Positions 2,316 through 53,458 of a stretch of 64,000 bases of DNA are shown piece after piece (position 1 is the stretch's first letter; the number at the start of each line of letters is the position of its first letter). The stretch comes from Clostridiaceae bacterium (GTDB taxonomy: Bacteria > Bacillota > Clostridia > Lachnospirales > Lachnospiraceae), in assembly GCA_902363735.1 (NCBI GenBank), contig CABJBA010000001.1, positions 310,001 to 374,000 on the forward strand, written 5' to 3'. The notes beneath the pieces are model-generated. The model had not been told where the DNA came from. It saw nothing but the letters and a program-made list of their open reading frames with translations, and did not search any database. Both the position numbers and the translations under genes were made by a program.

Positions 2316-2330
2316 AAGCGCACCTCCTCT

Positions 2331-2714: not shown

Positions 2715-2789
2715 AATTCCGTCTCCTTTTCACTGTGTTTTCCCTTACATTTTGCATAAATATGCCTGAAGGGTACTTTCTTAAATTAA

Positions 2790-14786: not shown

Positions 14787-14800
14787 ACTTTCCCTCTCAT

Positions 14801-16045: not shown

Positions 16046-16047
16046 AA

Positions 16048-34184: not shown

Positions 34185-34187
34185 AAA

Positions 34188-34228
34188 CACCCTAAGTGCT
34201 GCTGTCTTTCCACAGTACTTAGGGTGTT
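34188..34228. terminator. Bidirectional terminator between FRG and OLD genes
   Basis: AAACACCCTAAGT pairs with ACTTAGGGTGTTT across an inner CTG/CAG. Good for both convergent genes. Confidence 0.85.
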
Positions 34229-34238
34229 TCTCTGCCCT

Positions 34239-36095
34239 TTACCCTTCTGTTTTCCTGCTTTCAAAATAAACAAAACGGTCAATAGCATCTAAAATATCCT
34301 TAAAATCTTCCCTCGGGGCCAATTCAATATACTTCTTCAGCACTTCTCCCTCCTGCTTTTTAAAAGGACCATAGAAAATGTCATACAGGTTATGTCCCCT
34401 CATATGAATTTTAAATTCCTCCATATGAGTCTTTAATTCATCCACAGATTCCATATCCTTTCCCACTGCCTCTAAAAATGCTTTTCCGCTTTTAATCCGG
34501 TGAAGGTACTCCTTCCACTTATCAAACAATATCCGGTAAAACGCCTCTTCGCTTTCCACAACACCAAGCTCTGCCATAATCTTTGGATTGAGGAAATAAT
34601 TTTCAAAGGAATAATATTTCAATATAAGAACATTTCTCCTTGTCACTCTTGGAAGTTTATCAGCATCCTCAAGACTGCGCTCATCGTAGTACCTGCAAAG
34701 CTGGCTCACAAGCTCCTCAGGATTTTTTCCATCTCCATCCCGGATCATCAAAAACTGATCCCGCAGATACACCTGGTTCATATATTTCAAATTGGCATAG
34801 GTCTTTATATTAGTACAGCTATTGGTGGTAATAATCGATATTCTGGAAAGACTTCCATCCTTATTCTGGATTTCCGAATAATACTTTTCCAGCAAAAGGG
34901 GAAGACGGCTCTTATCCTGCTTTCCTTCCACAATAAACACAAAGCTGACACCTAATAAGTCATTGGCGCCATACCCCAGATCATCTAAAATTGAATCAAT
35001 GTCGGTCCTCTCTTTAACCATGGAATAACCGTCTTTGTCTAAAACAACCTGCCTGATCTGGCGGCGGGTGAAGTTAAAGAGCATGCCAGGAGAATGAGTG
35101 GAAAAAATCACCTGGTTTTTCTTAGACAGGCGGTAAAGAATCTCACTTGAGGTTTTTTGAAGCTGTGGGTGAAGAAAAATTTCCGGGTCTTCCACGATTA
35201 CAATGCTGGGAATCAATTTTTCATCCTCTGTATACGTCTCCAAAAGAGACAGCATATACAGGCTTTTCATGCCAGTACTCAACGTTCCGATAGGACTTAA
35301 CCGTCCTCTTTCCATATGATAGGCTTCCGCTTTCACGCGAAACAGCTCATTAGAGCTCATATTGAGAGAAAAGCGAATCTCTTCGTACCCTCCGTTTTTC
35401 CTGTAGTTTTCATTGACTCTGGCTGCAAAGTCATTTATATTAAGCTGGTACATCTTGTATTCCAACAGCTTTACTGTTTCATAAACCTGAAGCTCCTCCG
35501 GTGTCTTTTGATTGATTAGACCGATGCATTGAAAGCACTGATTGCATTCCTTTGTATCATCAAACAGACATAAGTTGTTTTTTAATTTAACCAGCTGGTC
35601 ATCTTCCTGAAACAAAAGCAGATCATTCTGAAACTGCTTTAAATCCCTTTCTGAATCAATATAATAAAGCCTTGGAAATATCTCTTTGATAAACCTGTTG
35701 TTCTTCCGGTATCCATCCTGAAAACGCACCTCTCCGCCCCAATTGACCTGAAAAGTAAAGGTCAGACTCTCCTCCCGATAAGATGGAAGCTTTTCTTTAA
35801 AGTCTTGAAGCCAGCCGTCATACCTCTTATATTGGCTCACCAGGCCGCTTTTGTGAAACATCTTTAAATCCTCTGATTTAATGCCCAGAGTCATGGTAAT
35901 CTCTATATTTTGTTTCTGCTCATTAAAATCCTCAGGACGAACTTCGTAAAAACCTGTGGCTGCCCGTATGGCATCTAAAATTCCTGTTTTTCCCGTATTA
36001 TTTTTCCCCACTAAAATCAGAGCATTTTCAATATCCTGGATTTCCATATCACGGATTGATTTAAAATTTTTGATGTGTACCGATGTAATCTGCAT
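34239..36095 (-). CDS. OLD-family ATP-dependent nuclease (AAA ATPase plus TOPRIM)
   Basis: A 618-residue protein. It starts MQITSVHIKNFKSIRD, with Walker A GKNNTGKT at about 30-37, an ABC-like signature LSTGMKSLYMLS, Walker B IVIVEDPEIFLHP and the H-loop FSTHSPG. The C-terminal TOPRIM domain has the invariant Glu in VFIVEGKQDKSR and the DxD in MIRDGDGKN. Such proteins nick or degrade DNA and occur alone or as Gabija GajA. No GajB-type helicase is next to it. A four-cysteine CNQCFQC patch in the middle could bind metal. I start at 36095 because AGAGGAGG is just upstream; GTG/ATG codons seven residues earlier overlap that site. Confidence 0.87.
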   Translation of the reverse strand: MQITSVHIKNFKSIRDMEIQDIENALILVGKNNTGKTGILDAIRAATGFYEVRPEDFNEQKQNIEITMTLGIKSEDLKMFHKSGLVSQYKRYDGWLQDFKEKLPSYREESLTFTFQVNWGGEVRFQDGYRKNNRFIKEIFPRLYYIDSERDLKQFQNDLLLFQEDDQLVKLKNNLCLFDDTKECNQCFQCIGLINQKTPEELQVYETVKLLEYKMYQLNINDFAARVNENYRKNGGYEEIRFSLNMSSNELFRVKAEAYHMERGRLSPIGTLSTGMKSLYMLSLLETYTEDEKLIPSIVIVEDPEIFLHPQLQKTSSEILYRLSKKNQVIFSTHSPGMLFNFTRRQIRQVVLDKDGYSMVKERTDIDSILDDLGYGANDLLGVSFVFIVEGKQDKSRLPLLLEKYYSEIQNKDGSLSRISIITTNSCTNIKTYANLKYMNQVYLRDQFLMIRDGDGKNPEELVSQLCRYYDERSLEDADKLPRVTRRNVLILKYYSFENYFLNPKIMAELGVVESEEAFYRILFDKWKEYLHRIKSGKAFLEAVGKDMESVDELKTHMEEFKIHMRGHNLYDIFYGPFKKQEGEVLKKYIELAPREDFKDILDAIDRFVYFESRKTEG

Positions 36096-36250
36096 AGTCC
36101 CTCCTCTTGACATCACCTTCTGGAACTTCTTTATAAGATATAAGTATAAAAGGCAGACAGAAAATTTTCAAGTTCTGTCATAAAAAAATTACACTGCCCA
36201 TTCCCACCTGTCATAGTATAAGATATATTCTTCTCAAAGGAGTGGTTCCT

Positions 36251-39605: not shown

Positions 39606-40685
39606 TTATAACGTTATTAACGCATCCGTAATATTGGTCAGCCTCTGATACCCGTCTTTAGTAATCAAATAATCGTCTTCCTGGCGAACTCCTCCGGTTC
39701 CCGGAATGTAAATCCCAGGTTCAATGGTATGTATGACGCCCGGCTTCAGATAATAATTACTTTTACTCCCAATATAGGGATGTTCATGAATTTCCAGTCC
39801 AAAACTGTGGCCAGCACCATGAGGAATCCTATAACCGGCCTCCTCTACTACGCCATATATATTCTGATGCAGTTCACTCATGGCTAATCCCGGTTTCAAA
39901 CTCTTTTCTCCCGCATCCTTTGCCTTTCTTACAGCATCAAACATCTTATAAAGTTCTGGATGCTTCGCCTTTCCCACTGCAACCGTTCGTGTAATATCCG
40001 AACAATATCCATGATAATAGGTTCCAAAATCAATGGTTACAAAATCTCCCAGTTCAATTTTTCGGGTTGATGGGGTTGCATGGCAGTTAGCTCCATTATC
40101 AGGCCCCGATGCCACAATTGTCTCAAAGCAAAACCCTGAGCCGCCGCGGCTGCGAAACTGATATTCCAGTTCATTGGCAATATCAATCTCTGTTACTCCC
40201 GGTTTTATAACATCCAGCAATGCATAAAACGAACGCTCTGAAATACGGCAGGCTTCCTGAATCGTTTCAATCTCCTCCGGTGTCTTAACCGCACGTAAAT
40301 CAGCTATATAAGATTCTTCCCGTATAAACGTTGTCTGTGGTGCCTTTTCTATCATATTTCGGTAATCATCATAGGAAATATCTGAACCGAAAAATACACA
40401 ATGTGCCAGATGACAATCTGCCGCCAGCTGTCCCAACTGCTGGAAATAGTTTAAACCAGCTCCATAAACCACGACCTCCAGCCCTTTTGTCTCTTGCTCT
40501 GCCTGATAGGCAAAGCGTGGATCTGTAACAAAATAGCATGCTTTCTCTGTCAGCAAAAGTACTGCTGTTCCATATTCTCCTGAAAATCCGGTCAGGTATT
40601 TAACATCTGTTCCTTTGCTGATTACCAGACCTTCCCGTCCATTCTTCTTCATTGTATCTAAAACTATCTGCAAACGCTCATTCAT
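39606..40685 (-). CDS. M24 Xaa-Pro dipeptidase/aminopeptidase (1)
   Basis: A 359-residue metallopeptidase that releases residues from X-Pro (and potentially X-Hyp) bonds. A creatinase-N domain (1-125) precedes the pita-bread fold. Dinuclear metal ligands are visible in VTIDFGTYYHGYCSDITRT (two Asp), AGHSFGLEIHEHP (His), HTIEPGIYI (Glu) and GGVRQEDDYLIT (Glu). It lies 18 bp after the POT peptide transporter on the same strand, so imported short peptides are its likely substrates. There is no signal peptide; it is cytoplasmic. It forms part of the hydroxyproline-peptide cluster together with hypD. Confidence 0.9.
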   Translation of the reverse strand: MNERLQIVLDTMKKNGREGLVISKGTDVKYLTGFSGEYGTAVLLLTEKACYFVTDPRFAYQAEQETKGLEVVVYGAGLNYFQQLGQLAADCHLAHCVFFGSDISYDDYRNMIEKAPQTTFIREESYIADLRAVKTPEEIETIQEACRISERSFYALLDVIKPGVTEIDIANELEYQFRSRGGSGFCFETIVASGPDNGANCHATPSTRKIELGDFVTIDFGTYYHGYCSDITRTVAVGKAKHPELYKMFDAVRKAKDAGEKSLKPGLAMSELHQNIYGVVEEAGYRIPHGAGHSFGLEIHEHPYIGSKSNYYLKPGVIHTIEPGIYIPGTGGVRQEDDYLITKDGYQRLTNITDALITL

Positions 40686-40703
40686 TGTTTTATCCCTTTC
40701 TGT

Positions 40704-42215
40704 TTATTCCTGCTTCCCATCTGCTTCCTTATCTTCTAATTGGTCCAGGCTCATTCCCTGTGCCAGTTTTTTCCCAAAGAGTGCAACAATTAAGCCAATA
40801 GCAAATACTATACCGCCTATTGCAAGAAAGAATGGAATCTCATTCCCTTCCTTGTAAAAGTTTACAATCAGTGTGTTCAGCGCTGCACCTGTTGACATGG
40901 ACATACCCCACACAGTCATCATCTGAGTCAAAAATGCTTTGGGTGCTGCTACAGCTGTGATGGAATAACCGACAGGGCAGGTGAAACCTTCTCCAAGCAT
41001 CAGGACTGCGTAGAACAGCAAAATCCAAAGTGCATTAATTTTGATATCACCTGGAAATGTCACATATAAAAATGCAATAATTAATGCACCCGCCCCCCAC
41101 AGCATAGTTCCAATCCCCATTTTTGTAGTCCCATAAGGCTGTTTCTTTCCCAGTTTTGTCCATAACATTGTCAGAATGCTGCCGATAATAATAGCCAAAA
41201 CAGCTGGTACGGTCTGGAATGAGGCTGCTGATACTTCGGTTCCAAAAATCACTCGATTTACCTTTTCATCATAAACAATTGCAAGGATAGAAATTGTCTG
41301 AGTCCAGATAAGCAATGTAATGGCATTGCAGAAAAACAGGGGAACCAGGCAAAGTACTTTCTTTTTTTCATGCTTCGCTGTCTTATGACTGGTATAAACA
41401 TATACAAAATATGCAATTGGGATAATGATAGATGCTGTACTGACTCCATTTGCAAAGGCAGGGATGCTTAACATACCACTTATAAACAGTCCTGCAAGTA
41501 CTGCTATTACAATGATCAGAACCACGATCATTTTCCCAATAAAGGAGCGCTTCTTATCATCTGGAAGCGGATCATCGGGTGCTATACCAATGCTGCCAAA
41601 AAACGGCTTGTATGTCACTGCATAAACAATCAGGCTTAAAAGTGAAAGAACTGCACAAGCAATAAATGATGCATGATACCCTAATGCAGCCGCAATCGCA
41701 CCAGAGAGCACTGGTGCAGCTGCACCAATATTGGAAATCACATAAGTAATGGTATAGGCACTGTCACGTCTCCCATCAGTCTTATCATAAAATTTTCCAA
41801 GCAATGCATCAAGGCATCTTCCACCAAACATTGGGCCAATGGCGAGACAGGCCATTGCAATCCCATAACCGGCTACCCCCAGCGGCAATGACAGGCAAAT
41901 AAAACCAATCAGATTAAATGCCCTGGCAACAAACAACGATTTGCGGCACCCTAAAATACGGTCGCATACATAACTTCCCACAATCCCCGTCAATGCAACT
42001 GCACCGGAATATAGAGACAGCAGCTGCGCAGCAATTTGTTTGCTGAATCCAAGGCCTTCCGGCGCATTGGCATATAAATAATAAATCAACACCGCACTCA
42101 TGCCATAGTTTGCAAACGAGTTACAAAGCTGCATAAAACTTAAGGTACCCACTCCCTTTGGCTGCCCCAAAAATGAGGTCTGTTTCTTCAAAGCTGCATC
42201 TTTTTCATTCAACAT
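40704..42215 (-). CDS. POT-family proton-dependent oligopeptide transporter
   Basis: A 503-residue PTR2/POT permease (di- and tripeptide/H+ symport). It opens with FLGQPKGVGTLSFMQLCNSFANYGMSAVLIYYL, where the helix-1 ExxER motif is replaced by NSFANYG. A further POT hallmark is ILGCRKSLFVA between helices two and three. The missing ExxER glutamates suggest altered proton coupling or a divergent subfamily. The start is the ATG at 42215 (AAGGAGGG at 8 nt). It is first in a two-gene operon with the Xaa-Pro peptidase, driven by a strong promoter with an operator. Confidence 0.85.
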   Translation of the reverse strand: MLNEKDAALKKQTSFLGQPKGVGTLSFMQLCNSFANYGMSAVLIYYLYANAPEGLGFSKQIAAQLLSLYSGAVALTGIVGSYVCDRILGCRKSLFVARAFNLIGFICLSLPLGVAGYGIAMACLAIGPMFGGRCLDALLGKFYDKTDGRRDSAYTITYVISNIGAAAPVLSGAIAAALGYHASFIACAVLSLLSLIVYAVTYKPFFGSIGIAPDDPLPDDKKRSFIGKMIVVLIIVIAVLAGLFISGMLSIPAFANGVSTASIIIPIAYFVYVYTSHKTAKHEKKKVLCLVPLFFCNAITLLIWTQTISILAIVYDEKVNRVIFGTEVSAASFQTVPAVLAIIIGSILTMLWTKLGKKQPYGTTKMGIGTMLWGAGALIIAFLYVTFPGDIKINALWILLFYAVLMLGEGFTCPVGYSITAVAAPKAFLTQMMTVWGMSMSTGAALNTLIVNFYKEGNEIPFFLAIGGIVFAIGLIVALFGKKLAQGMSLDQLEDKEADGKQE

Positions 42216-42272
42216 CACATTTACCCTCCTTGTATAAATTTTATATGTTTATTTCATTATTTTAAACATATG

Positions 42273-42286
42273 TTCACAATTATGAA
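42273..42286. promoter_or_regulatory. Operator of the POT-peptidase operon
   Basis: The dyad TTCACAATTATGAA lies at about +3 to +16 of the promoter below. It matches TTCATTATTATGAA at 45265-45278 in 12 of 14 positions, and that copy has the same promoter-relative position. Confidence 0.7.
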
Positions 42287-42295
42287 TACATGTGT

Positions 42296-42324
42296 ATTAT
42301 ACTTTTTCTTGTGCATTTTGTCAA
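42296..42324 (-). promoter_or_regulatory. Sigma-A promoter of the POT-peptidase operon
   Basis: Minus strand TTGACA (42324-42319), 17-bp spacer, TATAAT (42301-42296): a consensus promoter. Confidence 0.9.
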
Positions 42325-42327
42325 TAA

Positions 42328-42350
42328 AAAAAGGCCCTCACGGAGCCTTT
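42328..42350 (-). terminator. Terminator of the regulator-GH127 operon
   Basis: Minus strand AAAGGCTC-CGTG-AGGGCCTTT followed by TTTT. It lies 4 bp past the GH127 stop and abuts the next promoter. Confidence 0.8.
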
Positions 42351-42354
42351 TCTA

Positions 42355-44655
42355 TTATATTGCTTGAAAATAAACCTGATACTTTTCATGGCATATCTGG
42401 CATAACGGCACAAAGCGAACTTGGGCCTTCTCGTATATCAACGAGAGCTCTCCATGGGGTTTTAATTCATCTTCCAGGTTCTTTTCATAAAACGGTAATT
42501 CCAAACATGTATCCTCATCCGTCAGAGCTGCCAACACATATGGGCCATACACCATACTTACAAGATTTTCTGCATCTGGTACCTTCTCTAAATACGGCCT
42601 GCATTCAAATTCGAGAAAAATCCCTGTATTTCCTTCAGCACACGGAATAGTGAAATATCCATGTTTATCAGGCTCTGCCTTTTGAATTATCCCATCCACA
42701 GTCATACTGCTGCTAAACCTGCTCCAGTAAGGCTTACGAACCTTTAATACGCACCCCGTCTTCATAGCCACTTGAATATGTACCTTAGAAGGCATAGAAG
42801 CTTCCGTCGTTATAGTCACGGAACCATCTTCCGATTCCAGCAGTGAGGGTATAAATAAATTAACAAATATTTCCTTCCCCGCTTTTGCATAGATTGCATC
42901 TGTATATTTGAAATGGCTCTCTAATCCGCTTCCATGGCAGCAGGAATTTTCATCTTCAAAGATTTTGTTATATCCCGGTGCAAGCGGCATAAAATAGGTA
43001 CTTCCTCCCGTGGTCCCATGTTCACAGGATGCAGCAATGTGATTGTAGAGAGTTCTCTCATAATAATTTACATAAGACACATCCGGATCATACTTATAAA
43101 GCTCTTGTGTTAATTTCAGCATATTGTAAGAAGCACAGCTCTCTGCCGTGTTTTTCGTCAGCAGACGGCCGATTTTTCCCGGTGCATGGAACATTTCCCC
43201 TTCTCCGGTTCCTCCAATGGCATAGATATGAGCTTCTGTGACTATTTTCCAGAAAAACGATGCAATATCATGATACTGTTTTTCTCCGGTTGCCTCAAAG
43301 AGTTTCATACACCCAACAACCTGAGGAATGTGTTGATTTGCATGAATACCGTCCAATACATCCACTTTCTCTTTCATGGGATAAAACAAGTAATCATTGT
43401 CGAAGAATCTTGCAGCCGCCAAGTGGTGCGGCTTTTCCGTAAGGACATACAGCCGTGCCATGGCATCATTCATTCCTCCAAATTCTCCAGCTATATATAA
43501 GCTCCACATCTTATTGCGCTGCTGAGGGCTGCATGCAGCCAGCCGGTTATAAACCCATTCTCCCAGCTCATCTGCCATTTGCAAAGCTGTTTTATCTTTA
43601 ATGAATTCATAGCAATCTAAAAGACCTGCAAGAATTTTGTGAAGCGTATAATAAGGAGCCCATATTTCAGGATAACGGATATACTGTTCCAATTGATCAA
43701 ATTGTTCTTCTGAATATGCGCTCAAAAAACCCTTTTTGCATCCGCAGTGTCGTTCCAGACTGATCTGGCACTCTCGCAATGACCGAACCATATATCCTGC
43801 CTTATCCGCAATTTTTTCGTTCCCCTCAGCATGATAGCAAAGTGCAAGAGCGGAAAGATAATGGCCGGTAGTATGTCCGCGCAGCTTGCTGTCCGGTGCA
43901 TCCCATCCAATCATCTCCGGCGCCTCTTTTTTATCTAATCCCGCCGCATCACGGAAGCTGTAAAGCATCTGGTCGTCGTTTACAGAGAGCAGGAATTCTT
44001 CAAACCAGCTCTGAGCTCGATAAAAAAAGCTTCCCTCGCTTAATTGAATTTTCCACTTTGGCTTTTTCTCAATTTTCGGTTCTTTTTCAACAATTCCCAA
44101 ATCCGCATTCTCTTTAATCTGGATCTCAGCACAAACAGGAACCTTTGTTCCTGAAATAATGCCCTTTACAAATATTTCTCCCGGCTTTTCACAAGAAATT
44201 TCCCCGTTCCCTTCCCAGTCTGCCTCATGTGCAATTGTCTTTCCATCTTCCGTATCCACAATTGCCGCACACGGCAGATAGAACTTACTCCCCACATGGG
44301 CCACCAGGTGCATGGGATGAACCGTTTTAATCAGAATCTGATTCTCTTCTTCCAGAACCCTTACTTCAAACTCACGTACAGCCTCCTCCTGTTCAAAACT
44401 GATTACTGCCATCAGTTTCACAATACGGGTCCCCATGCCAAACTTAGGTCTGGTCACTGTTCCATCCGTACCGATAATTCGGTCATGCCCCGTTACCCAG
44501 CGAATGTCCGATCCATTGGCTCCTTTAACAGGAAGTTTCAAATCAAATTCTACAGTTCTTGTGTTTCCAATATACAATGCTTCCTTATCCATTTCAACGA
44601 TTTCTCTGGCTGTCATTTTTCCCTTTCCAGCATATTCGCTGTATCCTGTTTTCAT
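42355..44655 (-). CDS. GH127 beta-L-arabinofuranosidase (cytoplasmic)
   Basis: A 766-residue glycoside hydrolase. Residues about 1-100 hold an atrophied bacterial Ig-like domain (TVTRPKFGMGTRIVKL). From about 200 the GH127 (alpha/alpha)6 barrel follows: RGHTTGHYLSALALCY, YTLHKILAGLLDCYE, GGMNDAMARLY and GGTGEGEMF. The cysteine-zinc site is intact: ESCASYNMLKL (Glu505, Cys507) and SCCHGSGLES (Cys572, Cys573), which correspond to the zinc ligands and Cys nucleophile of HypBA1. There is no signal peptide. GH127 enzymes remove the last beta-L-arabinofuranose from hydroxyproline; other arabinosides are possible. The start abuts the regulator stop (TAAATG), so the two genes are co-translated. Confidence 0.88.
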   Translation of the reverse strand: MKTGYSEYAGKGKMTAREIVEMDKEALYIGNTRTVEFDLKLPVKGANGSDIRWVTGHDRIIGTDGTVTRPKFGMGTRIVKLMAVISFEQEEAVREFEVRVLEEENQILIKTVHPMHLVAHVGSKFYLPCAAIVDTEDGKTIAHEADWEGNGEISCEKPGEIFVKGIISGTKVPVCAEIQIKENADLGIVEKEPKIEKKPKWKIQLSEGSFFYRAQSWFEEFLLSVNDDQMLYSFRDAAGLDKKEAPEMIGWDAPDSKLRGHTTGHYLSALALCYHAEGNEKIADKAGYMVRSLRECQISLERHCGCKKGFLSAYSEEQFDQLEQYIRYPEIWAPYYTLHKILAGLLDCYEFIKDKTALQMADELGEWVYNRLAACSPQQRNKMWSLYIAGEFGGMNDAMARLYVLTEKPHHLAAARFFDNDYLFYPMKEKVDVLDGIHANQHIPQVVGCMKLFEATGEKQYHDIASFFWKIVTEAHIYAIGGTGEGEMFHAPGKIGRLLTKNTAESCASYNMLKLTQELYKYDPDVSYVNYYERTLYNHIAASCEHGTTGGSTYFMPLAPGYNKIFEDENSCCHGSGLESHFKYTDAIYAKAGKEIFVNLFIPSLLESEDGSVTITTEASMPSKVHIQVAMKTGCVLKVRKPYWSRFSSSMTVDGIIQKAEPDKHGYFTIPCAEGNTGIFLEFECRPYLEKVPDAENLVSMVYGPYVLAALTDEDTCLELPFYEKNLEDELKPHGELSLIYEKAQVRFVPLCQICHEKYQVYFQAI

Positions 44656-45207
44656 TTAACGATTCTTCTGGTGAACCCAGATACTGACAGTTTCTATATC
44701 GTGGCGGTTGTAGATGCGGTGCTGTTTTCGCTCTGCAATATACATGGAATCTCCCTTATTTAAGTCATAAACCTCATGATCCAGCTCTACAGTTAAAATA
44801 CCGCTTTGTACCATACAGATTTCCGGATAAAGATGTCTGGATACTTCACCTTTTTCTTTCGCTCCTGGCTTTATTGTTATTTTTTCATACATCTGGCGGT
44901 CATATCCAAAGTCAACACCTTCTACTGTCATCTTCTGCCGTTCATATTCCCATATCTTCTTTTCATCTTTTCTTATAATAAATTTCTTGTTTTTTTCATC
45001 AGTAATCAATTCAACCACATCTGTCTGTAATGCCACTGCAACGCGCTGCAAATTCTCTACAGTAGGGCTGTTTTTACCTGTTTCCAAATTACTAAGGAAA
45101 CCGATAGAAAGTCCTGTATATTCCGAAAGCTCACGCATTGTATATCCCAGTTCTTTCCTCAAAAGACTGATTTTTTCTCCAATAGCCTCCAAATTGATTT
45201 CATTCAT
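44656..45207 (-). CDS. XRE-type HTH plus cupin regulator of the GH127/peptide cluster
   Basis: A 183-residue regulator. An N-terminal HTH_3 covers residues 9-63 (ISLLRKELGYTMRELSEYTGLSIGFLSNLETGKNSPTVENL), followed by a linker and a C-terminal cupin (EICMVQSGILTVELDHEVYDLNKGDSMYIAERKQHRIYN). This SinR/PuuR-like architecture usually senses a small molecule in the cupin. It sits in one operon with the GH127 gene and downstream of an operator that recurs at the POT operon, which makes it the prime candidate for both sites. Confidence 0.88.
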   Translation of the reverse strand: MNEINLEAIGEKISLLRKELGYTMRELSEYTGLSIGFLSNLETGKNSPTVENLQRVAVALQTDVVELITDEKNKKFIIRKDEKKIWEYERQKMTVEGVDFGYDRQMYEKITIKPGAKEKGEVSRHLYPEICMVQSGILTVELDHEVYDLNKGDSMYIAERKQHRIYNRHDIETVSIWVHQKNR

Positions 45208-45264
45208 GAATTATCTCCCCTTTTATTGACATGTTTAGTTTGTTTACGAAATGCTGCGTATAAT

Positions 45265-45278
45265 TTCATTATTATGAA
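45265..45278. promoter_or_regulatory. Operator of the regulator-GH127 operon
   Basis: The dyad TTCATTATTATGAA sits at about +4 to +17 of the promoter below. It is the partner of the copy at 42273-42286. Confidence 0.7.
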
Positions 45279-45287
45279 CATAATTGC

Positions 45288-45316
45288 ATCATAATCCATA
45301 TATCAGCTTATGTCAA
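45288..45316 (-). promoter_or_regulatory. Sigma-A promoter of the regulator-GH127 operon
   Basis: Minus strand TTGACA (45316-45311), 17-bp spacer, TATGAT (45293-45288). Confidence 0.88.
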
Positions 45317-45319
45317 TTC

Positions 45320-45338
45320 AAAATGGGACAACCATTTT
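45320..45338 (-). terminator. Weak terminator after the hypD gene
   Basis: Minus strand AAAATGG-TTGTC-CCATTTT, a 7-bp stem with only a short T-run. Leaky read-through into the GH127 operon is possible. Confidence 0.45.
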
Positions 45339-45371
45339 TACTTCTTCACTTTCTAATCCTCTGCCTCACGT

Positions 45372-47753
45372 TTAGTAAAAGCTCTGTTCCGTACGGTTGA
45401 TAATTTCGTCCTGCAGTTCCTTGCTTAAGTTGCGGAAATGATCCGAATAGCCTGCCACTCGGACAATCAACTCCTTGTATTCTGATGGATTCTGCTGTGC
45501 CTTAATCAGGGTCTGGCGGTCAATTACGTTGAACTGGATATGATGTCCATCCATATTAAAGTAGGAACGAATCAGGCTGGCCATATTATTAAGCCCTTCT
45601 TCTCCCGCCACTACTGCAGGTGCAAATTTTTGATTTAACAGAGTTCCTCCCGTTGACAGATGATCCATTTTACTTGCAGAACGAATCACCGATGTGGGCC
45701 CGTTGACATCAGCCCCTTTCTCCGGGGATATTCCCTCACTGACCGGTTTATGGGCCTTTCGTCCATTGGGTGCAGCCATCATAACTTCACCAAAATATAT
45801 ATGGCAGGTGGTAGGGAGCATGTTAATTCTCCACTGTCCATTCCGCATATTGGGACGCCCTGTTACCATATTCTTATAGAACTCAAAAACCTCTTTCATA
45901 ATTGCATCAGCATAATCATCATCATTTCCGTACTTCGGTGTTTTGTAGGATACCAGATTATAAATCCTTACGTTCTTCTCTCCTTCAAAGTCTTCCTCCA
46001 TTGCCTGCATCAGCTCCTCCATAGAGAAGTTGTGGTTATCGTATATATGATATTTAATTGCGGCAAGAGAATCCGTAATTGTACCGATACCCACTCCCTG
46101 GAGATAGTTTGTGTTATAACGTGCTCCTCCTGCATTATAATCCCTGCCTCTGGCAATACAGTCATCGGTGATAATTGACAAAAATGGGGCAGGCATATAC
46201 TTTGCATAGATGCTGGTAATAATATTACTTCCTTTTATCTTAATATTGACAAAATAATTCATCTGCTTTTTATAAGCATCATACAGTTCTTCATAGGTCT
46301 TAAAATCTTTTCCATAGCCAAGTTTTAGTCCTAACTGTCTTTTTGAAACCGGATCATATCCGTTGTTCAATGTGATTTCCAGAATCTTCGGCAGGTTAAA
46401 ATATCCTTGGAGAATGTATGCCTCCCGGCCGAAGGCACCGGTTTCCACACATCCGGAAGTTCCGCCTTTGCGGGCATCCTGAATGGACTTACCTGCATGT
46501 AACAGTTCCTGTATAATTGCTTCTGTATTGTAAAAAGCCGGCTGACCCCAGCCCTTCCTGGAAATTTCACAGGCTTTCTTTAAAAACCTTGCAGGCGTCT
46601 TACGGGATATCTGAACATTGCTGGAGGGCTGCAGCAGCTTCATCTCATCCATAGTATCTAAAATCAGATAAGATACCTCATTGACTCCGTCTTCCCCATC
46701 CGATGTGATTCCTCCCGTATTGATATTGGCAAAATCCGTATAGGTGGAAGACTCCTTAAGAGTGATTCCTACCTTAGGGGGAGCTGGCTGATTATTAAAT
46801 TTCACCCACAGGCACTCCAACAGTTCTTTCGCCTTTGTTTTATCCAGCTTGCCTGCTGCCACATCTGCCTTATAAAATGGATTCAAGTGTTGATCCAGAC
46901 GTCCTGGAGAATAGGCATCCCAGGGATTTAGTTCTGTCGTCACCCCCAGATGAACAAACCAGTACATCTGAATTGCCTGCCAGTAGGTTTCAGGTTTATG
47001 AGCCGGCACCACATCACAGTTGGCTGCAATCTGAAGCAATTCATTCCTGCGGATCGGATCCTTTTCCTCTTTTGCAATCTCCCTGGCCAGGTTGGCGTAT
47101 CTCTCTCCCAAAATAATAATCGCATCACACATGATACTCATGGCCTTTAATTCGTCACGCTTTTCAAGGGCTTCAGGATCACTCATAAAATCCAGAGCTG
47201 CAATTTCTTTTTCAATATCATCCTTATAGTCCAGAAAACCTTTTGCATAGATTTTTTCCGATCCTACAGTATGTCCCGGCCCCCGCTGTTCCATAAATTC
47301 CGTAAAAATCCCTGCTTCGTAGCAGTCTTTCCACTCAGGTGACATGGAATTGATGATTTTGCGGCGAATGGAGCGTTTCTCCCAGAAAGGAATGATAACT
47401 TCCTTTTGCTCTTTCATATCCCCATCACTGACCTTAAAGCAGATCAGCTTACGGTCATTCATGACCCTCATATCTTCCAGTGTATGGCAGCACAGCTCCG
47501 GAAACGTAGGTGTTGACTGGGGCCCATTCCCTTTATCTCCCACAATCAACTCTCCATCTTCGATGGTGATGGTTTTACGGGTGAAGATTTCCTTCAAGGA
47601 CAATGCGCGAAGCTCAGGAACCGACACTTCCCCCTCATATTTGCTGTATGCATCCGTCATAAGCATGGCCCGTTCCATAAAAATATGGGGAACAGTCTCT
47701 TCGCTCTGAGTTCTCAATTTTTTAATACGATCATTCATACCTCTGGCTTCCAT
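45372..47753 (-). CDS. hypD: trans-4-Hydroxy-L-proline dehydratase (glycyl radical enzyme)
   Basis: A 793-residue glycyl-radical enzyme that dehydrates trans-4-hydroxyproline to 1-pyrroline-5-carboxylate. The thiyl-radical motif GTSGCVETGAFG has Cys435 and Glu437, and the glycyl motif RVAGYSDHF puts the radical glycine at 768. WDAYSPGRLDQHLNPFY (Asp279), GHTVG (His161) and TYTDF (Asp340) agree, with a one-residue offset, with active-site residues described for the Clostridioides difficile enzyme (Cys434, Glu436, Gly765). This separates it from glycerol, choline and propanediol GREs, which lack the Cys-Val-Glu context. AGGAGG precedes the ATG. The activase gene is 2 bp upstream. No proC partner is next to it. 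Confidence 0.9.
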   Translation of the reverse strand: MEARGMNDRIKKLRTQSEETVPHIFMERAMLMTDAYSKYEGEVSVPELRALSLKEIFTRKTITIEDGELIVGDKGNGPQSTPTFPELCCHTLEDMRVMNDRKLICFKVSDGDMKEQKEVIIPFWEKRSIRRKIINSMSPEWKDCYEAGIFTEFMEQRGPGHTVGSEKIYAKGFLDYKDDIEKEIAALDFMSDPEALEKRDELKAMSIMCDAIIILGERYANLAREIAKEEKDPIRRNELLQIAANCDVVPAHKPETYWQAIQMYWFVHLGVTTELNPWDAYSPGRLDQHLNPFYKADVAAGKLDKTKAKELLECLWVKFNNQPAPPKVGITLKESSTYTDFANINTGGITSDGEDGVNEVSYLILDTMDEMKLLQPSSNVQISRKTPARFLKKACEISRKGWGQPAFYNTEAIIQELLHAGKSIQDARKGGTSGCVETGAFGREAYILQGYFNLPKILEITLNNGYDPVSKRQLGLKLGYGKDFKTYEELYDAYKKQMNYFVNIKIKGSNIITSIYAKYMPAPFLSIITDDCIARGRDYNAGGARYNTNYLQGVGIGTITDSLAAIKYHIYDNHNFSMEELMQAMEEDFEGEKNVRIYNLVSYKTPKYGNDDDYADAIMKEVFEFYKNMVTGRPNMRNGQWRINMLPTTCHIYFGEVMMAAPNGRKAHKPVSEGISPEKGADVNGPTSVIRSASKMDHLSTGGTLLNQKFAPAVVAGEEGLNNMASLIRSYFNMDGHHIQFNVIDRQTLIKAQQNPSEYKELIVRVAGYSDHFRNLSKELQDEIINRTEQSFY

Positions 47754-47755
47754 TC

Positions 47756-48670
47756 CTAACCTCCTATTTTTACATTTATAAAGCCTTGAGCTTCAAACAT
47801 TGCTTTGAGCTTTTCCATATGTTCTTTGGAAGGCGTGCCCAGTTCCATGGCCGGATACATCCTTCCCAGCTTTTCATATTTACTGCTTCCCATATTGTGA
47901 TATGGTAACAGGTTTACTTTAACAATTCCTATTCGTTCTTTCAAGTATACCATGATTTGATTCATTGAATCTTCATCACTGTTTACCGGCTCCACCACTG
48001 GGATCCGGATATTGATATCGGCACAATGGTCTGCCAGATATTCCAGGTTAGTGAGAATCAGATCATTGGATTTCCCCATATATTTCATATGAATTTGGTT
48101 ATCCAGGGTCTTGATATCATACAGAAACGTATTTACATATGGCAGCAGACGTTCAAAATTCCCGGTGGGCGCATAGCCGCAAGTATCGATATTCACATGG
48201 TAATCACGTTCCTTCAGACACCGGCACAGTTCCTCCAGATAATCCATATCCTGGGTCATAACCTCACCGCCGGAAAGAGTCACACCTCCGCCGGACTCCT
48301 CATAGAAACAGGCATCCTTATTAATAATTTTCATTAATTCTTCAATCGTGTATTCTTTTCCCACTATTTCACGGTTATGATAAGGGCAATAATCCAGGCA
48401 AGTTCCACACAGATGACATTTATCCCCATCCGTCAACGCAACACCTTCCCTGGATATAACGATTGCACCATAAGGACAGTTCTTTTCGCAATAACCACAA
48501 CCCTTGCACTGTTCTTGATTAAACATGAGTTCCGGCGTATAGTTCTGGCTTTCCGGATTATGACACCACCAACAGTTCAGCATACACCCCTTAAAAAAAA
48601 CAGTTGTGCGGATCCCGTCTCCATCGTGTATTGAATATTTCTGTATGTTCACAATCAATGGATTTCTCAT
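47756..48670 (-). CDS. Glycyl-radical enzyme activating protein (radical SAM)
   Basis: A 304-residue activase that uses SAM and a [4Fe-4S] cluster to place the glycyl radical on HypD. The radical-SAM motif is GCMLNCWWC (Cys29, Cys33, Cys36). Two ferredoxin-like inserts follow (CKGCGYCEKNCPYGAI and CHLCGTCLDYCPY), as in GRE activases. GGGVTLSGGEVM is the SAM-binding glycine stretch, and NIDTCGYAP is present. It starts after GGAGAG and lies between the ThrE-like genes (48-bp gap) and hypD (2-bp gap). Confidence 0.93.
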   Translation of the reverse strand: MRNPLIVNIQKYSIHDGDGIRTTVFFKGCMLNCWWCHNPESQNYTPELMFNQEQCKGCGYCEKNCPYGAIVISREGVALTDGDKCHLCGTCLDYCPYHNREIVGKEYTIEELMKIINKDACFYEESGGGVTLSGGEVMTQDMDYLEELCRCLKERDYHVNIDTCGYAPTGNFERLLPYVNTFLYDIKTLDNQIHMKYMGKSNDLILTNLEYLADHCADINIRIPVVEPVNSDEDSMNQIMVYLKERIGIVKVNLLPYHNMGSSKYEKLGRMYPAMELGTPSKEHMEKLKAMFEAQGFINVKIGG

Positions 48671-48718
48671 ACGATTTCTCTCCTAATTCTTCCGTAGTTC
48701 TTCCACACCTTATGCCTG

Positions 48719-49192
48719 TCAGGACTTCCGATGCTCTGCCTCATTCCACACCTGTGAATTCTGTTTCCAGCCATATGCCTTGGCCGGCACGGAATAGACA
48801 ACTCCGATTCCAAGGGCAATGGCAATGGCAGTCTTAAAAGTTGCAAATCCATGAATCGCAGCCATTTGCGTCTGACCAAAAAAGAGATAATAAGCCGTAT
48901 AGAAAATACCTGCTCCCGGCACCAGTGTGAAGATGCCGGTTAGGAGAAACACCGTCGCCGGTGCCTTTACCTTTACAGCACTGAATCTTGAAAGCGCCGT
49001 AAGCACAATCGTTGCCGCAAAAGTTGCCAGTAATGACATACCAAAAGATTCCTTAATGAAAAGGTAAACCGCCCATCCCGCTGCTCCAATCAGTCCACAG
49101 CGCAGATAATGCCTGGGCATAACGCTAAACAGGACGCAGAATGCCATCGTACCCGTTAATGCCGCAAATATTTGAATCACATATTCTCTCAT
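48719..49192 (-). CDS. ThrE-type exporter small subunit (ThrE_2/DUF3815)
   Basis: A 157-residue membrane protein with four to five helices (VIQIFAALTGTMAFCVLF, LIGAAGWAVYLF, FAATIVLTALSRF, VFLLTGIFTLVPGAGIFYTAYYLF). The VPGAGIFYTAYYL segment is characteristic of the C-terminal domain of threonine/serine exporters, found as a separate subunit in Firmicutes. It overlaps the larger subunit gene by 4 bp (ATGA). In this cluster it could export an amino acid released by the Xaa-Pro peptidase, but its direction and substrate are inferred from the family. Confidence 0.85.
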   Translation of the reverse strand: MREYVIQIFAALTGTMAFCVLFSVMPRHYLRCGLIGAAGWAVYLFIKESFGMSLLATFAATIVLTALSRFSAVKVKAPATVFLLTGIFTLVPGAGIFYTAYYLFFGQTQMAAIHGFATFKTAIAIALGIGVVYSVPAKAYGWKQNSQVWNEAEHRKS

Positions 49193-49989
49193 AATATTTT
49201 CCCTGTTAAAGATTGCCAGATCTGCATTGATACTCCAACCCCAATGGCAATAGAACCAGCAACCAAAAAAGCATCCATCATACGCAGCAGTCCTGTCAGA
49301 TAATCATTCTCCAGCAGATTCCGGATTGCATTTGTAATCAAAACTCCGGGAGACAGAATAAATACTGGTCCAATCATCATCAAATCCAGATTGTCTCCTA
49401 TTCCTGCACTGTAAAGTAAGCAGCAAACGAAAGATGCCGTCATGGCACTGGCAATATTTATCATGATTTTTGGTAAATGAAATGCGGGAATGATATACAG
49501 CAAAAAAGCCTCAAGGCTCAATCCAGCCAGAAACGCACCTAATCCGTCCTCAAAGCTGCCCAAAAAGAGAATGGAAAAGCAGCCTGCTCCAATGGCAGCC
49601 GCAAGAGTCTTTACTCCGTTGCCTAAAGTATGCATATTTTCAATCCGCTCAAGTTCTTCCTTCGCTTTTTCCAACGGGTACAGCCCTGCCGAAATTTTTC
49701 GTGACAGATCATTGAGTGCTTCCACTTTACAAAGGACAATGGGAGAAAGAGGAGTATTCAAAATCCTGCAAGAATATACTCCCTGTTTTGTACAGTAGGA
49801 AGAGAAAATTCCATTTGCCACAACATAGGAATGAAAATCCTCCAGGCCATATGCTCTTGCCGCATAGCGCATAGCCTCATCTGCCCGAAAAATCTCACCG
49901 CCATTTTTTAATATTGTTTCTCCAAGTCTTGTAACCAGACGAAACTTTTCTATTTTCTCTGTTTCCGGATATTCTTCACTGTCTTTCAT
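49189..49989 (-). CDS. ThrE-type exporter large subunit (DUF1212)
   Basis: A 266-residue protein with a soluble N-terminal domain (LVTRLGETILKNGGEIFRADEAMRYAARAYGLE, residues 17-49) and about five membrane helices in the C-terminal half (FSILFLGSFEDGLGAFLAGL, IMINIASAMTASFVCCLLYS, GPVFILSPGVLITNAIRNLL). NGGEIFRAD is a family hallmark. It overlaps the peptidase gene by 14 bp and the small subunit by 4 bp, forming a two-component threonine/serine exporter of the YjjP/YjjB type. Confidence 0.87.
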   Translation of the reverse strand: MKDSEEYPETEKIEKFRLVTRLGETILKNGGEIFRADEAMRYAARAYGLEDFHSYVVANGIFSSYCTKQGVYSCRILNTPLSPIVLCKVEALNDLSRKISAGLYPLEKAKEELERIENMHTLGNGVKTLAAAIGAGCFSILFLGSFEDGLGAFLAGLSLEAFLLYIIPAFHLPKIMINIASAMTASFVCCLLYSAGIGDNLDLMMIGPVFILSPGVLITNAIRNLLENDYLTGLLRMMDAFLVAGSIAIGVGVSMQIWQSLTGKIL

Positions 49990-51067
49990 AGGGGATGACC
50001 TTAAATTCCTTGGAATAATGGTTCAAAACTTCGCAGTCTTTTTCTGTAATCAGCACCAGATCCTCCACCCTGACTCCAAATCCCTCTTCCGGCAAATAGA
50101 TTCCAGGCTCTATGGAAAAACATTGCCCTTCCTGTATTACATCAGTATTGTTGTATGCCACATTGCCGGTCTCATGAACCTCTAATCCAATGGAGTGGCC
50201 TGTTCTGTGAGGAAAATATTCTCCATACCCCTTTGACTCAATATAGCCCCGTACGGCCAAATCCACATCACACATGCGGTTTCCCGGCTTTGCCGCAGCA
50301 ATACCGCGAAGATTTGCCTCAAGTACAATCTCATATACTTCTTTCTGTTTTGCAGAAGCTTCCCCCAGAAATATGGTTCTCGTCATATCTGAACAATAGC
50401 TGTCCGTCTTTCCGCCTATATCAAAGGTAATGCTATCCCCATATAATGCTTTTGCATGTTGCGGCATATAGTGAGGGTCCGCAGTGTTTTTCCCGAAGGC
50501 AATAATTGGCTTGAAAGAACACTCCTCTGCTCCAAGCCGGCTGTAAATATCCCGCAATCTTTCCTCAAGCTGACGTTCACTGAATCCTTTGTCTGCAAGC
50601 TCCATCAACAGTTCCATGGCGTTATCGTTTATTAAAGAGGACTTGCGCATAAGGTCCTGTTCTTCAGTATCCTTTATCATTCGGATATTGTCAATGATTC
50701 CTGACGCATTAACAAAGATATTGCCGGGATTCAACTCCTGCATACGAAGCAAAAATTTAGCCTGCCAGTTCTTGTCTACCCCTATAGGTTTCCCTTTTTC
50801 AATGCAGCCGCTTAATATATTTACACCGTCTTGAATATCATCTACATATATCACCTCAAGCTCCCCATCTGGAACCTGTGGATATAGATTGCTCACTACC
50901 AGCCGGTGCTTTCCGCTTAGATTTAAAAGCAGGGCCAAAAGGCGTTCCCCTGGAAAAATCCACCTGCCTGTCAGATAATAAATGCTGTATGTATCAGAAA
51001 CCACTATCTGTGTCAGAGCATTTCGCTCCATTTCTCTTAAAACCCGTTCCACACGTATTTTTTTCAT
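49976..51067 (-). CDS. M24 Xaa-Pro dipeptidase/aminopeptidase (2)
   Basis: A 363-residue pita-bread metallopeptidase, a paralogue of the one at 39606. Ligand motifs are TFDIGGKTDSYCSDMTRT, RTGHSIGLEVHETG, FSIEPGIYLPEEG and GVRVEDLVLIT. It leads the five-gene operon peptidase-ThrE-ThrE2-activase-hypD. Pairing an X-Pro/X-Hyp peptidase with a Hyp dehydratase in one operon is the best evidence that the cluster feeds on Hyp-containing peptides. A TTGGAA-18 bp-TATAGA promoter is possible about 30 bp before the GGAGAGG site; no copy of the GH127-type operator is present. Confidence 0.9.
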   Translation of the reverse strand: MKKIRVERVLREMERNALTQIVVSDTYSIYYLTGRWIFPGERLLALLLNLSGKHRLVVSNLYPQVPDGELEVIYVDDIQDGVNILSGCIEKGKPIGVDKNWQAKFLLRMQELNPGNIFVNASGIIDNIRMIKDTEEQDLMRKSSLINDNAMELLMELADKGFSERQLEERLRDIYSRLGAEECSFKPIIAFGKNTADPHYMPQHAKALYGDSITFDIGGKTDSYCSDMTRTIFLGEASAKQKEVYEIVLEANLRGIAAAKPGNRMCDVDLAVRGYIESKGYGEYFPHRTGHSIGLEVHETGNVAYNNTDVIQEGQCFSIEPGIYLPEEGFGVRVEDLVLITEKDCEVLNHYSKEFKVIPYERQ

Positions 51068-51193
51068 TTTTCCTCTCCTTTTTCCACTTTATCTATACTG
51101 TCCAGCCATGTCTTCTTCCAATTAAAGTAAGTAAGCCTAACCCCAACGTATTAAAGCGGAAGCCAGACTTACCTGATACTTTATTATTCGTGC

Positions 51194-53458
51194 CTATTTC
51201 TCAGCCTTTAAATAATAAATCCTGGACAAATAATCTCCCTGAATCTCTTTGGCAATATGCTTCATTCCTGATGAATAATCCGATACACTGATTCCTATAT
51301 GAATCAGTTCACTGCCATAATGCTTATAAGAGGTGAGCTTTTCAGCCTCAAGAACGCTGTCTCTGATTTCTTCAACCAAATATTCTGTCTCTTCGTCTAT
51401 CCCCCAAAGCCGGATCTTATCGTAGCTGCTCTCCGGTCTCTGCAGAATTCGGTAATATGCAAAAACAGCTTCTTTTTTATCTCCCGATACCACAATCCAT
51501 GCTGCGGTGTTATAATCCTGCTCAAACGGACTTCTCAGTCTGTAAAAATCTCCAAACTGAATTAGCTTTCTAAACTTTTTCATAAACTGAACCTGTTTTT
51601 TTATCACCTGTATTTCATCCGCCTGAAGCTTCGTTATGTCAAGCTCATAACCAAAAGTACCGAAACAGGCCACATTTGCCCGCATACTTAAGGATTCTTT
51701 CCGGAATACCTGTTCATTCGGTATGGCTGAGACATGGCTTCCTATGCTGCAAATGGGGTAGACCATAGAACTGCCATATTGGATTTTAATTCTTTCTACT
51801 GCATCCGTATTATCAGACGCCCAGGCCTGAGGCGCATAATACAACATTCCAGCATCAAATCTGGCCCCTCCGCTGGCACAGGATTCAAATAATATCTCCG
51901 GAAAGTCCTTTCTTAGCCTTTCATATAAAGAATAAGTTCCCAGAATATATTTGTGCCTTGCCTTTCCCTGGTACTCTTTTCCCCGATCATTGGAAAACAC
52001 CTCTGAAAACGCCCGGTTCAAGTCCCATTTGATATAGGAAACAGAAGCCTCTGACAACACTTTCTTTATCATTTGGTAAACATATTCAACCACTTCCTCT
52101 TTGGAAAAGTCCAGTACGTACTGCCCTCTCGCTTTTGATAAATGTCTTCTTCTGTCACCAAAGACCCATTCCGGATGTTTTTGAAACAGCTCACTGTTTT
52201 CATTTACCATCTCCGGCTCAAACCAGAGTCCAAACTTAAGTCCAAGATCATTGATCTTTCTGGACAGTCCCGTAATTCCCTCCGGCAGCTTTTCCAGATT
52301 GGGATACCAGTCTCCAAGGGAAGAAGTGCTGTCATTCCGGGTTCCAAACCAGCCATCATCCAGTACAAATAGTTCTATTCCCGTTTCAGCTGCGGCTTTT
52401 GCCAGCTGAAGGATCTTTTCCTCATTGAAATCAAAATAAGTAGCTTCCCAGTTGTTAATTAGCACGGGCCGTTCTTTCTCTTTCCAATAACCTCTGATCA
52501 GGCAGTCTTTAAATAAATTATGATAGGCCAGACTTAACCCACCAAGCCCTTTATCAGAATATACCATAACCACTTCAGGAGTTGTAAAACTCTCTCCCTT
52601 GTTTAATTTCCATCTGAATTCATTTGGATGAATTCCCATAAGGATTCTTACCACATTGAAGTTATCAACTTCAATCTGCCCAAGAAAGTCACCGCTGTAA
52701 ATAAAGTTAAACCCAATGGCTTCTCCTGCCTGCTCATTGGTATTCTTCCTTTTCAGAACCAGATAAGGGTTGAACTGATGACTGGAACACCCCCGCATAC
52801 TATAGATCGCCTGTGTTCCATATTCCAGATTCCGTTCACAGACGTGACGTTCTCTTGACCACGCACCTGCCAGATACAGCATATTATATTCTTTATCCGG
52901 TAAATCCAGACACATGCTCATTGCTGTCTCAAGGCTTATTCCCTGGTTGTTGTCACAATGAAACCTTGCGTGTCTTGCAATTACCGGTCTTTCTTCATAA
53001 ATCGTGTAACTCAAGACAATTGTGCTGTTTATTAACTCATCCTCAAGGGTTATCTCAAGAGTCACTGCTTCCTCATCATGTTCCACATAGGTGGCCGGAA
53101 GTCCTGTAAGCTCTTTCTTCCCCGCAAAAACAGTATGGTTTTTGTATGTAAAATTTACAATCCTGCTTCCATCACTTGTTTCTATTTCATAGGCAGGATA
53201 CCGCATATCTCCATTTCCATAAGCAGGATATTCCTGTCTGATATGTTCAAGAGAAAAATATGGATTGTCCCCAATAGGACATGCCTGCATATCCCGATGT
53301 CCGCGTTCCGAAAGATATTGGTAATCTTCTTTGTCATTTACACGCTTTCCAAAGTAGAGCTGACCTAATTGTCCATTTTCAAGAATAGTAAACAGATAAC
53401 TTATTTCATTGTTAAACATATGAAATAGGTTGGTCTTATTATAATACTTTATCGGCAT
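51194..53458 (-). CDS. GH36 alpha-galactosidase
   Basis: A 754-residue cytoplasmic alpha-galactosidase of family 36. The beta-sandwich N-domain is followed by the (beta/alpha)8 barrel. FVLDDGWFGTRNDSTSSLGDW, the nucleophile region SYIKWDLNRAFSEV and the acid/base region WASDNTDAVERIKIQYG are intact. The start is the ATG at 53458, with AGAGGA 7 nt upstream; the frame runs on to 53569 only because no stop intervenes, and that stretch would overlap the divergent promoter region. It probably hydrolyses alpha-galactosides such as raffinose or melibiose delivered by the ABC transporter at 55277-58492. It is divergent from two AraC regulators. Confidence 0.92.
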   Translation of the reverse strand: MPIKYYNKTNLFHMFNNEISYLFTILENGQLGQLYFGKRVNDKEDYQYLSERGHRDMQACPIGDNPYFSLEHIRQEYPAYGNGDMRYPAYEIETSDGSRIVNFTYKNHTVFAGKKELTGLPATYVEHDEEAVTLEITLEDELINSTIVLSYTIYEERPVIARHARFHCDNNQGISLETAMSMCLDLPDKEYNMLYLAGAWSRERHVCERNLEYGTQAIYSMRGCSSHQFNPYLVLKRKNTNEQAGEAIGFNFIYSGDFLGQIEVDNFNVVRILMGIHPNEFRWKLNKGESFTTPEVVMVYSDKGLGGLSLAYHNLFKDCLIRGYWKEKERPVLINNWEATYFDFNEEKILQLAKAAAETGIELFVLDDGWFGTRNDSTSSLGDWYPNLEKLPEGITGLSRKINDLGLKFGLWFEPEMVNENSELFQKHPEWVFGDRRRHLSKARGQYVLDFSKEEVVEYVYQMIKKVLSEASVSYIKWDLNRAFSEVFSNDRGKEYQGKARHKYILGTYSLYERLRKDFPEILFESCASGGARFDAGMLYYAPQAWASDNTDAVERIKIQYGSSMVYPICSIGSHVSAIPNEQVFRKESLSMRANVACFGTFGYELDITKLQADEIQVIKKQVQFMKKFRKLIQFGDFYRLRSPFEQDYNTAAWIVVSGDKKEAVFAYYRILQRPESSYDKIRLWGIDEETEYLVEEIRDSVLEAEKLTSYKHYGSELIHIGISVSDYSSGMKHIAKEIQGDYLSRIYYLKAEK

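Follow-up and report, generated by a model that had tools for sequence, protein, structure and literature searches.

The 64-kb window analyzed here, a stretch of a contig from a Clostridiaceae bacterium (CABJBA010000001.1), carries on its minus strand a cluster of ten genes (39606–53458) in which a candidate arabinofuranosidase is joined to genes assigned to peptide uptake, peptide cleavage and hydroxyproline (Hyp) breakdown. The cluster was delimited from open reading frames and profile searches of the encoded proteins. Read downward from 53458, it begins with a GH36 alpha-galactosidase that is possibly part of the system (51194–53458; PF02065 at 518 bits with PF16875 and PF16874, the Melibiase and GH36 N- and C-terminal domains; 886 bits to 8k1a). 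There follow an M24 peptidase (49976–51067; PF00557 at 230 bits, PF01321 also matched), ThrE-type (49189–49989; PF06738, 180 bits) and ThrE_2-type (48719–49192; PF12821, 97.5 bits) exporter halves, the predicted radical SAM activase of HypD (47756–48670; NF043069, 436 bits against a cut-off of 425) and the predicted trans-4-hydroxy-L-proline dehydratase HypD itself, a glycyl radical enzyme (45372–47753). An XRE-cupin transcriptional regulator (44656–45207; PF01381, PF07883), a PF07944 glycosidase (42355–44616; the frame opens at 44655 and the family start is at 44616), a POT-family peptide transporter (40704–42218; PF00854) and a further M24 peptidase of the prolidase or aminopeptidase P type complete the order. 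The latter (39606–40685; PF00557 at 213 bits, PF01321 at 54 bits) is about 30% identical to the other M24 protein and has the "proline dipeptidase" 3q6d as its best solved relative (231 bits). The gaps, in the same order, are 126, -14, -4, 48, 2, 164, 39, 136, and 18 bp. All genes named in an earlier note on this DNA were recovered in place and on this strand by profile searches; that note overlooked the XRE-cupin gene between the glycosidase and hypD, and it drew the cluster without the GH36 gene, whose frame is on this strand too, 126 bp upstream.

Free hydroxyproline is the established substrate of the Clostridioides difficile HypD, so that glycosylated, peptide-bound hydroxyproline would need a glycosidase and a peptidase first. 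We know of no glycosidase partner of the C. difficile HypD pathway. The window HypD is well above the curated equivalog cut-off (NF043068, 1489 against 1100 bits), and its closest solved structure is the C. difficile enzyme (6vxc, 1278 bits). It keeps the residues equivalent to Cys434, Glu436, Gly765, Asp278, and His160, whose roles (catalytic Cys, Glu of the CXE motif, glycyl radical Gly, Asp278, and His160) have been described (PMC7077986). The likeness to the C. difficile pathway thus extends to the equivalog, the key residues and the activase, and the protein is predicted to be a trans-4-hydroxy-L-proline dehydratase; the accessible main text of that paper never uses the words plant, extensin or gene cluster (PMC7077986).

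The glycosidase combines an N-terminal aBig_2 domain, which in a fold search with one model matched residues 550–640 of AbnA, with PF07944 (301 bits). Pfam names the latter domain GH127, and the earlier note had argued for its substrate from the GH127 enzyme HypBA1. HypBA1, however, matches only at E ~6e-4, and the protein is nearer to GH146. Since sequence, fold and tree all place it with GH146, the GH127/HypBA1 assignment was rejected and the argument built on it falls. In quick trees made without bootstrap, the protein groups with characterized GH146 enzymes, with SH-aLRT support of 100 for the split from seven GH127-type rows; a second tree omitted 20 hand-chosen rows. The reference zinc-coordinating residues of GH146 (Glu-x-Cys and Cys-Cys; PMC10850190) are present as Glu492, Cys494, Cys559, and Cys560 (753-residue numbering), and they do not vary across the 30 sequences of the alignment, which include that of the window. 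From sequence, fold model and tree we regard the protein as a GH146-like beta-L-arabinofuranosidase candidate. On reading, its N-terminus shows no visible signal peptide, which suggests a cytoplasmic enzyme.

The closest of three characterized GH146 enzymes compared is Bifidobacterium longum Bll4HypBA1 (33% identity, 318 bits), ahead of BT0349 (249 bits) and Bll3 (222 bits), and a clade with SH-aLRT support of 90 holds the window glycosidase and Bll4HypBA1 while BT0349 and Bll3 fall outside. Activity of Bll4HypBA1 (BLLJ_0089) on Araf-beta-Hyp of hydroxyproline-rich glycoproteins (HRGPs) has been reported (PMC10850190). The route to its sequence was indirect: in a sample with up to nine candidates per genome, one genome encodes a protein 100% identical to Bll3HypBA1, and the other GH146-type gene of that genome was taken as Bll4HypBA1. 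The other two enzymes point elsewhere: BT0349 works on arabinan-derived substrates, and Bll3HypBA1 acts on beta-1,3-Araf of arabinogalactan protein and arabinan with very low activity on Ara-Hyp (PMC10850190). These activities would favor an alternative in which the targets of the glycosidase are ordinary plant polysaccharides (arabinan, arabinogalactan protein, rhamnogalacturonan II side chains) and its hydroxyproline and peptide neighbors are there by chance or as parts of a general plant-debris island. The composition of the cluster argues the other way, as Pfam found no pectinase or arabinanase domain among its ten proteins.

The transporter scores above its profile cut-off (TIGR00924, 233 against 130 bits), in agreement with the earlier suggestion of a peptide symporter as far as family is concerned, but it lacks ExxER, the proton-coupling motif in helix 1 that is the signature of POT peptide:H+ symporters, and has QLCNS in its place (MQLCNSFANYG). 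ExxER is absent as well from all eight other glycosidase-linked POTs aligned, which are distant relatives at 28–33% identity. Among the matches listed, 84 homologs of the window POT include six with ExxER, all at no more than 31% identity, and ten without letters at this position. The window protein (40704–42218) belongs to a POT subfamily in which the helix-1 ExxER is replaced, mostly by QxxNS, a change that the listed relatives show down to roughly 35% identity. POT genes were found near the glycosidase in nine loci (L001, L014, L036, L052, L058, L135, L137, L138, and L177), and other lineages have an ABC importer of the Opp type in this position (e.g., L008, L009, L018, and L034). M24 peptidases likewise recur beside the glycosidase in related loci, which bears out the peptide importer and peptidase partners proposed earlier.

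The metal-ligand motifs of M24 enzymes are D, D, H, E, and E. Both M24 proteins of the cluster have the D, D, E, and E motifs, with the His motif at 289 (39606–40685) and 287 (49976–51067). Neither passes an NCBIfam equivalog cut-off, and it is their family that suggests specificity for Xaa-Pro or Xaa-Hyp bonds. A protein of about 360 aa with an HExxH-type motif (by reading), possibly a peptidase partner, was seen between POT and M24 genes at L144:10248–11369 (minus strand) and L184:11880–12983 (plus strand), and near the glycosidase at L012:2032–3117 and L058:7407–8474 (both minus strand). Three of the four copies have metallopeptidase-family Pfam matches below curated cut-offs, the L144 copy has no PDB match, and no such protein was found in the window.

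GH36 enzymes are common, and the one in this cluster may act on serine-linked alpha-galactose. POT, glycosidase and GH36 genes occur together in five other loci, namely L001 (Clostridium), L135 and L137 (the Paenibacillus genus of genome G003), L177 (the genus of the Bifidobacterium seed), and L014 (a record labeled Olsenella; genes found by tblastn). Extensins carry both Ser-alpha-Gal and Hyp-beta-Araf (PMC8012813), which would explain a GH36 partner.

The genomic neighborhoods of related glycosidases were scanned with a 30-sequence alignment as query, keeping the best 80 of 597 matched loci, a set that does not take in the closest relatives of the window enzyme (62–84% identical). In six of these 80 loci (L008, L011, L015, L018, L047, and L075), which come from several clostridial lineages, the glycosidase has hypD and its activase no more than about 10 kb away. 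All of them except L047, where the hypD pair is on the opposite strand, also have a proC-like gene (Pfam check in L008), and L075 (Anaerocolumna) has a longer, 1115-aa form of the glycosidase. Four Paenibacillus loci (L002, L003, L004, and L019) carry two proline-racemase-family genes, DHDPS-family and KGSA-dehydrogenase-like genes and a HypX-like subunit. An M24 peptidase and a DAO oxidoreductase are present in addition in all but L019, whose sequence ends before this point. Families were checked with Pfam in L002 only among these loci, where two [2Fe-2S] proteins were found too. The L002 proteins stay below the equivalog cut-offs for 4-hydroxyproline epimerase (371.6 against 376) and KGSA dehydrogenase (603 against 770).

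The epimerase-type bacterial 4-hydroxyproline pathway consists of 4-hydroxyproline epimerase, D-hydroxyproline dehydrogenase, deaminase and KGSA dehydrogenase, and it handles the same amino acid with enzymes unrelated to HypD. Judged by the whole gene set against this layout, the Paenibacillus loci would encode such a pathway; a marker search did not find it in the window. The hydroxyproline label, carried by 13 of the 80 labeled rows, requires at least seven changes on the tree, so that the link with the glycosidase is unlikely to be one inherited accident.

Three of the 80 loci (L014, L048, and L057) had no glycosidase open reading frame in the simple gene caller, which leaves 77. In the 63 with a glycosidase frame below 1000 aa, hypD or the epimerase was found in 11, an M24, POT or OppA gene in 24, and any of these in 27. 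The corresponding counts for the 14 loci with longer frames are one, zero and one, a soft contrast because four of the 14 loci are shorter than 6 kb. A ThrE marker, based on one sequence, had no match in the 77 other loci. ThrE was therefore rejected as a conserved part of the pathway, and the export step that the earlier note assigned to it is unsupported, as is a pathway role for either exporter half. Seven loci (L012, L047, L051, L061, L067, L074, and L078; Pfam-checked in L047 only) have a GH127-type gene near the GH146-like gene, which suggests two-enzyme versions for longer arabinose chains.

Co-occurrence was then counted across 299 genomes of the family of G001 (a Faecalicatena contorta record; the labels Lachnospiraceae and Paenibacillus are taken from the seed records). 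A short glycosidase was defined by more than 840 bits and a frame below 900 aa, with at most three candidates scored per genome. It was present in seven genomes, all of which also have hypD, while hypD is found in 24 of the 299 overall (Fisher p 8.8e-9, kinship ignored). Without the three seed genomes the association persists (4/4 against 17/292; Fisher p 1.9e-5, kinship again ignored). Genomes with long multidomain relatives have hypD in 0 of 11 cases, and those with the remaining, weaker alignment matches in 1 of 30. The earlier note would have been refuted if hypD and the glycosidase were only rarely found together in relatives; the seven of seven carriers, the six adjacent loci and the Paenibacillus loci point the other way.

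In the genus of G003 (100 genomes, up to ten candidates per genome, glycosidase matches with E up to 1e-200), nine genomes have the glycosidase (11 copies in 10 loci) and eight have the epimerase family. In the four genomes with both, one of them the seed, the glycosidase lies directly downstream in one co-directional run (L132, L133, L134, and L141). An M24 gene adjoins the glycosidase in L135–L138; GH36 and POT genes accompany the pair in L135 and L137, as in the window, and a POT gene does so in L138. The link between glycosidase and hydroxyproline or peptide genes in Paenibacillus is thus recurrent, not obligatory.

A promoter scan of 16.5 kb gave 63 sigma-70-like sites, where 41 were expected, and its two best matches fall in the 164- and 136-bp gaps, one upstream of the XRE gene (45288–45316, minus strand; 11/12 consensus bases) and one upstream of POT (42296–42324, minus strand; 12/12). 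A terminator-like repeat before POT was seen on inspection of the sequence and was not listed by the promoter and terminator scan. Given these features, one single operon was rejected; the promoters probably divide the region into three or four units of transcription (GH36; M24-ThrE-ThrE_2-activase-HypD; XRE-glycosidase; POT-M24). The POT and XRE promoters have an 18–20 bp stretch in common, and they hold operator-like palindromes at 42253–42286 (34 bp, imperfect, with two half-sites) and 45265–45282, respectively. With up to two mismatches, the palindrome pattern has three matches in the 64 kb, all in these two promoters, where 0.00 are expected, a count that is partly by construction as the pattern was derived from two of the three sites. 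A looser scan (up to four mismatches) gave mostly scattered matches. The exact core TTCATnnnnATGAA was matched 12 times in the 1.77 Mb of 93 loci, some of which overlap; ten Markov simulations gave 0–7 matches. Placed by position, seven of the 12 precede a POT or glycosidase start (L001, L007, L013 twice, L017, and L144) or adjoin an XRE gene (L009). One of the L013 matches lies inside a small overlapping open reading frame, and that in L017 is upstream of the homologous start but within the longest frame. In L144, an XRE gene (36%) adjoins an M24 (70%) and POT (79%) set.

This division into units would also fit two separate neighbors joined only by their position in this genome: POT-M24, XRE-glycosidase and GH36 for arabinosylated and galactosylated peptides, and M24-ThrE-activase-HypD for free or collagen-derived hydroxyproline. 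The two strong promoter matches and the terminator-like repeat (the latter from inspection), the lack of any palindrome-like motif seen upstream of the hypD unit, the 0/77 result for the ThrE marker and the dispersal of the modules in genome G236 all favor such a pairing. On the other hand, hypD lies near the glycosidase in the six loci of other lineages described above, and the two genes co-occur even when far apart; we consider separate neighbors improbable.

We instead propose that the locus serves growth on short arabinosylated Hyp glycopeptides released from plant HRGPs such as extensin, a reading to which we give a probability of roughly two in three (0.68). The protein families, their key residues, recurrent adjacency, co-occurrence and the shared palindrome are established by computation; from here on we infer substrate, order of steps, transport and regulation. 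The POT-family transporter would import short glycopeptides. In the cytosol, the GH146-like enzyme would hydrolyze beta-L-arabinofuranose from hydroxyproline via its zinc-bound cysteine, and the GH36 enzyme may take alpha-galactose off serine. The M24 peptidases would cut Xaa-Hyp and Xaa-Pro bonds, and HypD, activated by its radical SAM partner, would convert free hydroxyproline to pyrroline-5-carboxylate. The XRE-cupin protein could control the glycosidase and POT-peptidase units through their common palindrome. Much of the Hyp(Ara)-peptide pathway of the earlier note therefore stands, now backed by co-occurrence, adjacency and the non-homologous hydroxyproline pathway of Paenibacillus, and shorn of its HypBA1/GH127 argument and its exporter.

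Besides the lack of the palindrome upstream of the hypD unit, several observations weigh against this proposal. The enzyme that links it to Araf-beta-Hyp, Bll4HypBA1, shares only 33% identity with the window glycosidase, looks exported from a reading of its N-terminus, and sits in a neighborhood without any peptide or hydroxyproline marker. Our confidence of 0.68 includes a lowering by 0.02, made because the support of 90 for this link sits on one fork and because the long form in L075 weakens one case of adjacency. Another GH146 enzyme, XeHypBA1, does not use Ara3-Hyp and Ara4-Hyp (PMC6085000), so that longer chains may call for an additional enzyme that was not seen in this locus. No proC-like gene was found by marker search in the 64-kb window. 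Glycosidase and hypD adjoin only in G001 and G002 among the seven carriers; the other five have them 2 Mb apart or on separate contigs. Among genomes of the genus of G003, the epimerase family is missing from five of the nine with the glycosidase, and the glycosidase, at the threshold applied, from four of the eight with the epimerase family; 2 of the 10 loci there (L139 and L140) have none of the markers. Finally, none of the five markers appears in the available flanking DNA of 36 of the 63 loci with a short glycosidase. This last count would also suit a glycosidase for ordinary plant polysaccharides. That explanation has to accommodate an enzyme adjoining two non-homologous hydroxyproline pathways and two kinds of importer, POT and Opp, as well as the co-occurrence with hypD in seven of seven genomes, and we attach little likelihood to it.

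Hydroxyproline dehydration by gut bacteria has so far been discussed mainly with collagen in mind. The HRGP system of B. longum (HypAA, HypBA2, HypBA1, and the ABC importer BLLJ_0208–0210) likewise has a cytosolic PF07944 enzyme, as proposed here, and is likewise aimed at beta-L-arabinofuranosides on hydroxyproline of extensin-type glycoproteins (PMC7263609). In that system, however, the sugar is cut off outside the cell and beta-Ara2 is imported, a route that takes the sugar only; the accessible part of the paper describes no hydroxyproline catabolism or peptide importer (PMC7263609). The window locus, unlike the B. longum system, links a peptide importer, peptidases and hydroxyproline breakdown to the glycosidase, and is a new combination of known enzyme kinds. 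Literature searches, with subscription papers outside their coverage, found no described cluster joining a hydroxyproline dehydratase or epimerase with an arabinofuranosidase, or hydroxyproline with GH127 and a peptidase, in line with the earlier note, which knew of no described cluster joining HypD to GH127. If the proposal is correct, anaerobes can obtain hydroxyproline from the protein of plant cell walls, one gene set marks which bacteria can use it, and functions are suggested for two subfamilies, one of GH146 enzymes and one of POT transporters that lack the usual proton motif. The question becomes testable with defined glycopeptides and named strains; relatives with adjacent genes include Muricomes intestini DSM 29489, Faecalicatena contorta NLAE-zl-C134, and Paenibacillus lautus NBRC 15380. 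More tentatively, and at somewhat less than even odds, the same observations could reflect a widespread and hitherto undescribed bacterial system for whole extensin Hyp glycopeptides, built from an ExxER-less POT or Opp importer, GH146, GH36 and M24 enzymes, and HypD or the epimerase pathway by non-homologous replacement; such a system would use the sugar as well as the amino acid.

Elsewhere in the window, glycine cleavage proteins (GcvPA and, by reading, GcvT) are encoded along with a [FeFe] hydrogenase of the monomeric type (996–3872 and 11222–12745, minus strand), as would suit an amino-acid-fermenting anaerobe. A plasmid search matched 35 records, none more than 60% identical. Two tandem pairs of aconitase-family large and small subunits (LeuC/LeuD, DmdAB or homoaconitase type; 13046–16539, minus strand) form one run, none of them above an equivalog cut-off. 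Candidate defense genes are present at 32892–36116, where a PADLOC PDC-S15 match (301 bits) is convergent with an OLD-type ATPase/nuclease (118 bits). Finally, a collagen-like Gly-Pro-Thr repeat protein is encoded on a 36-bp tandem array at 59546–60196 (plus strand).

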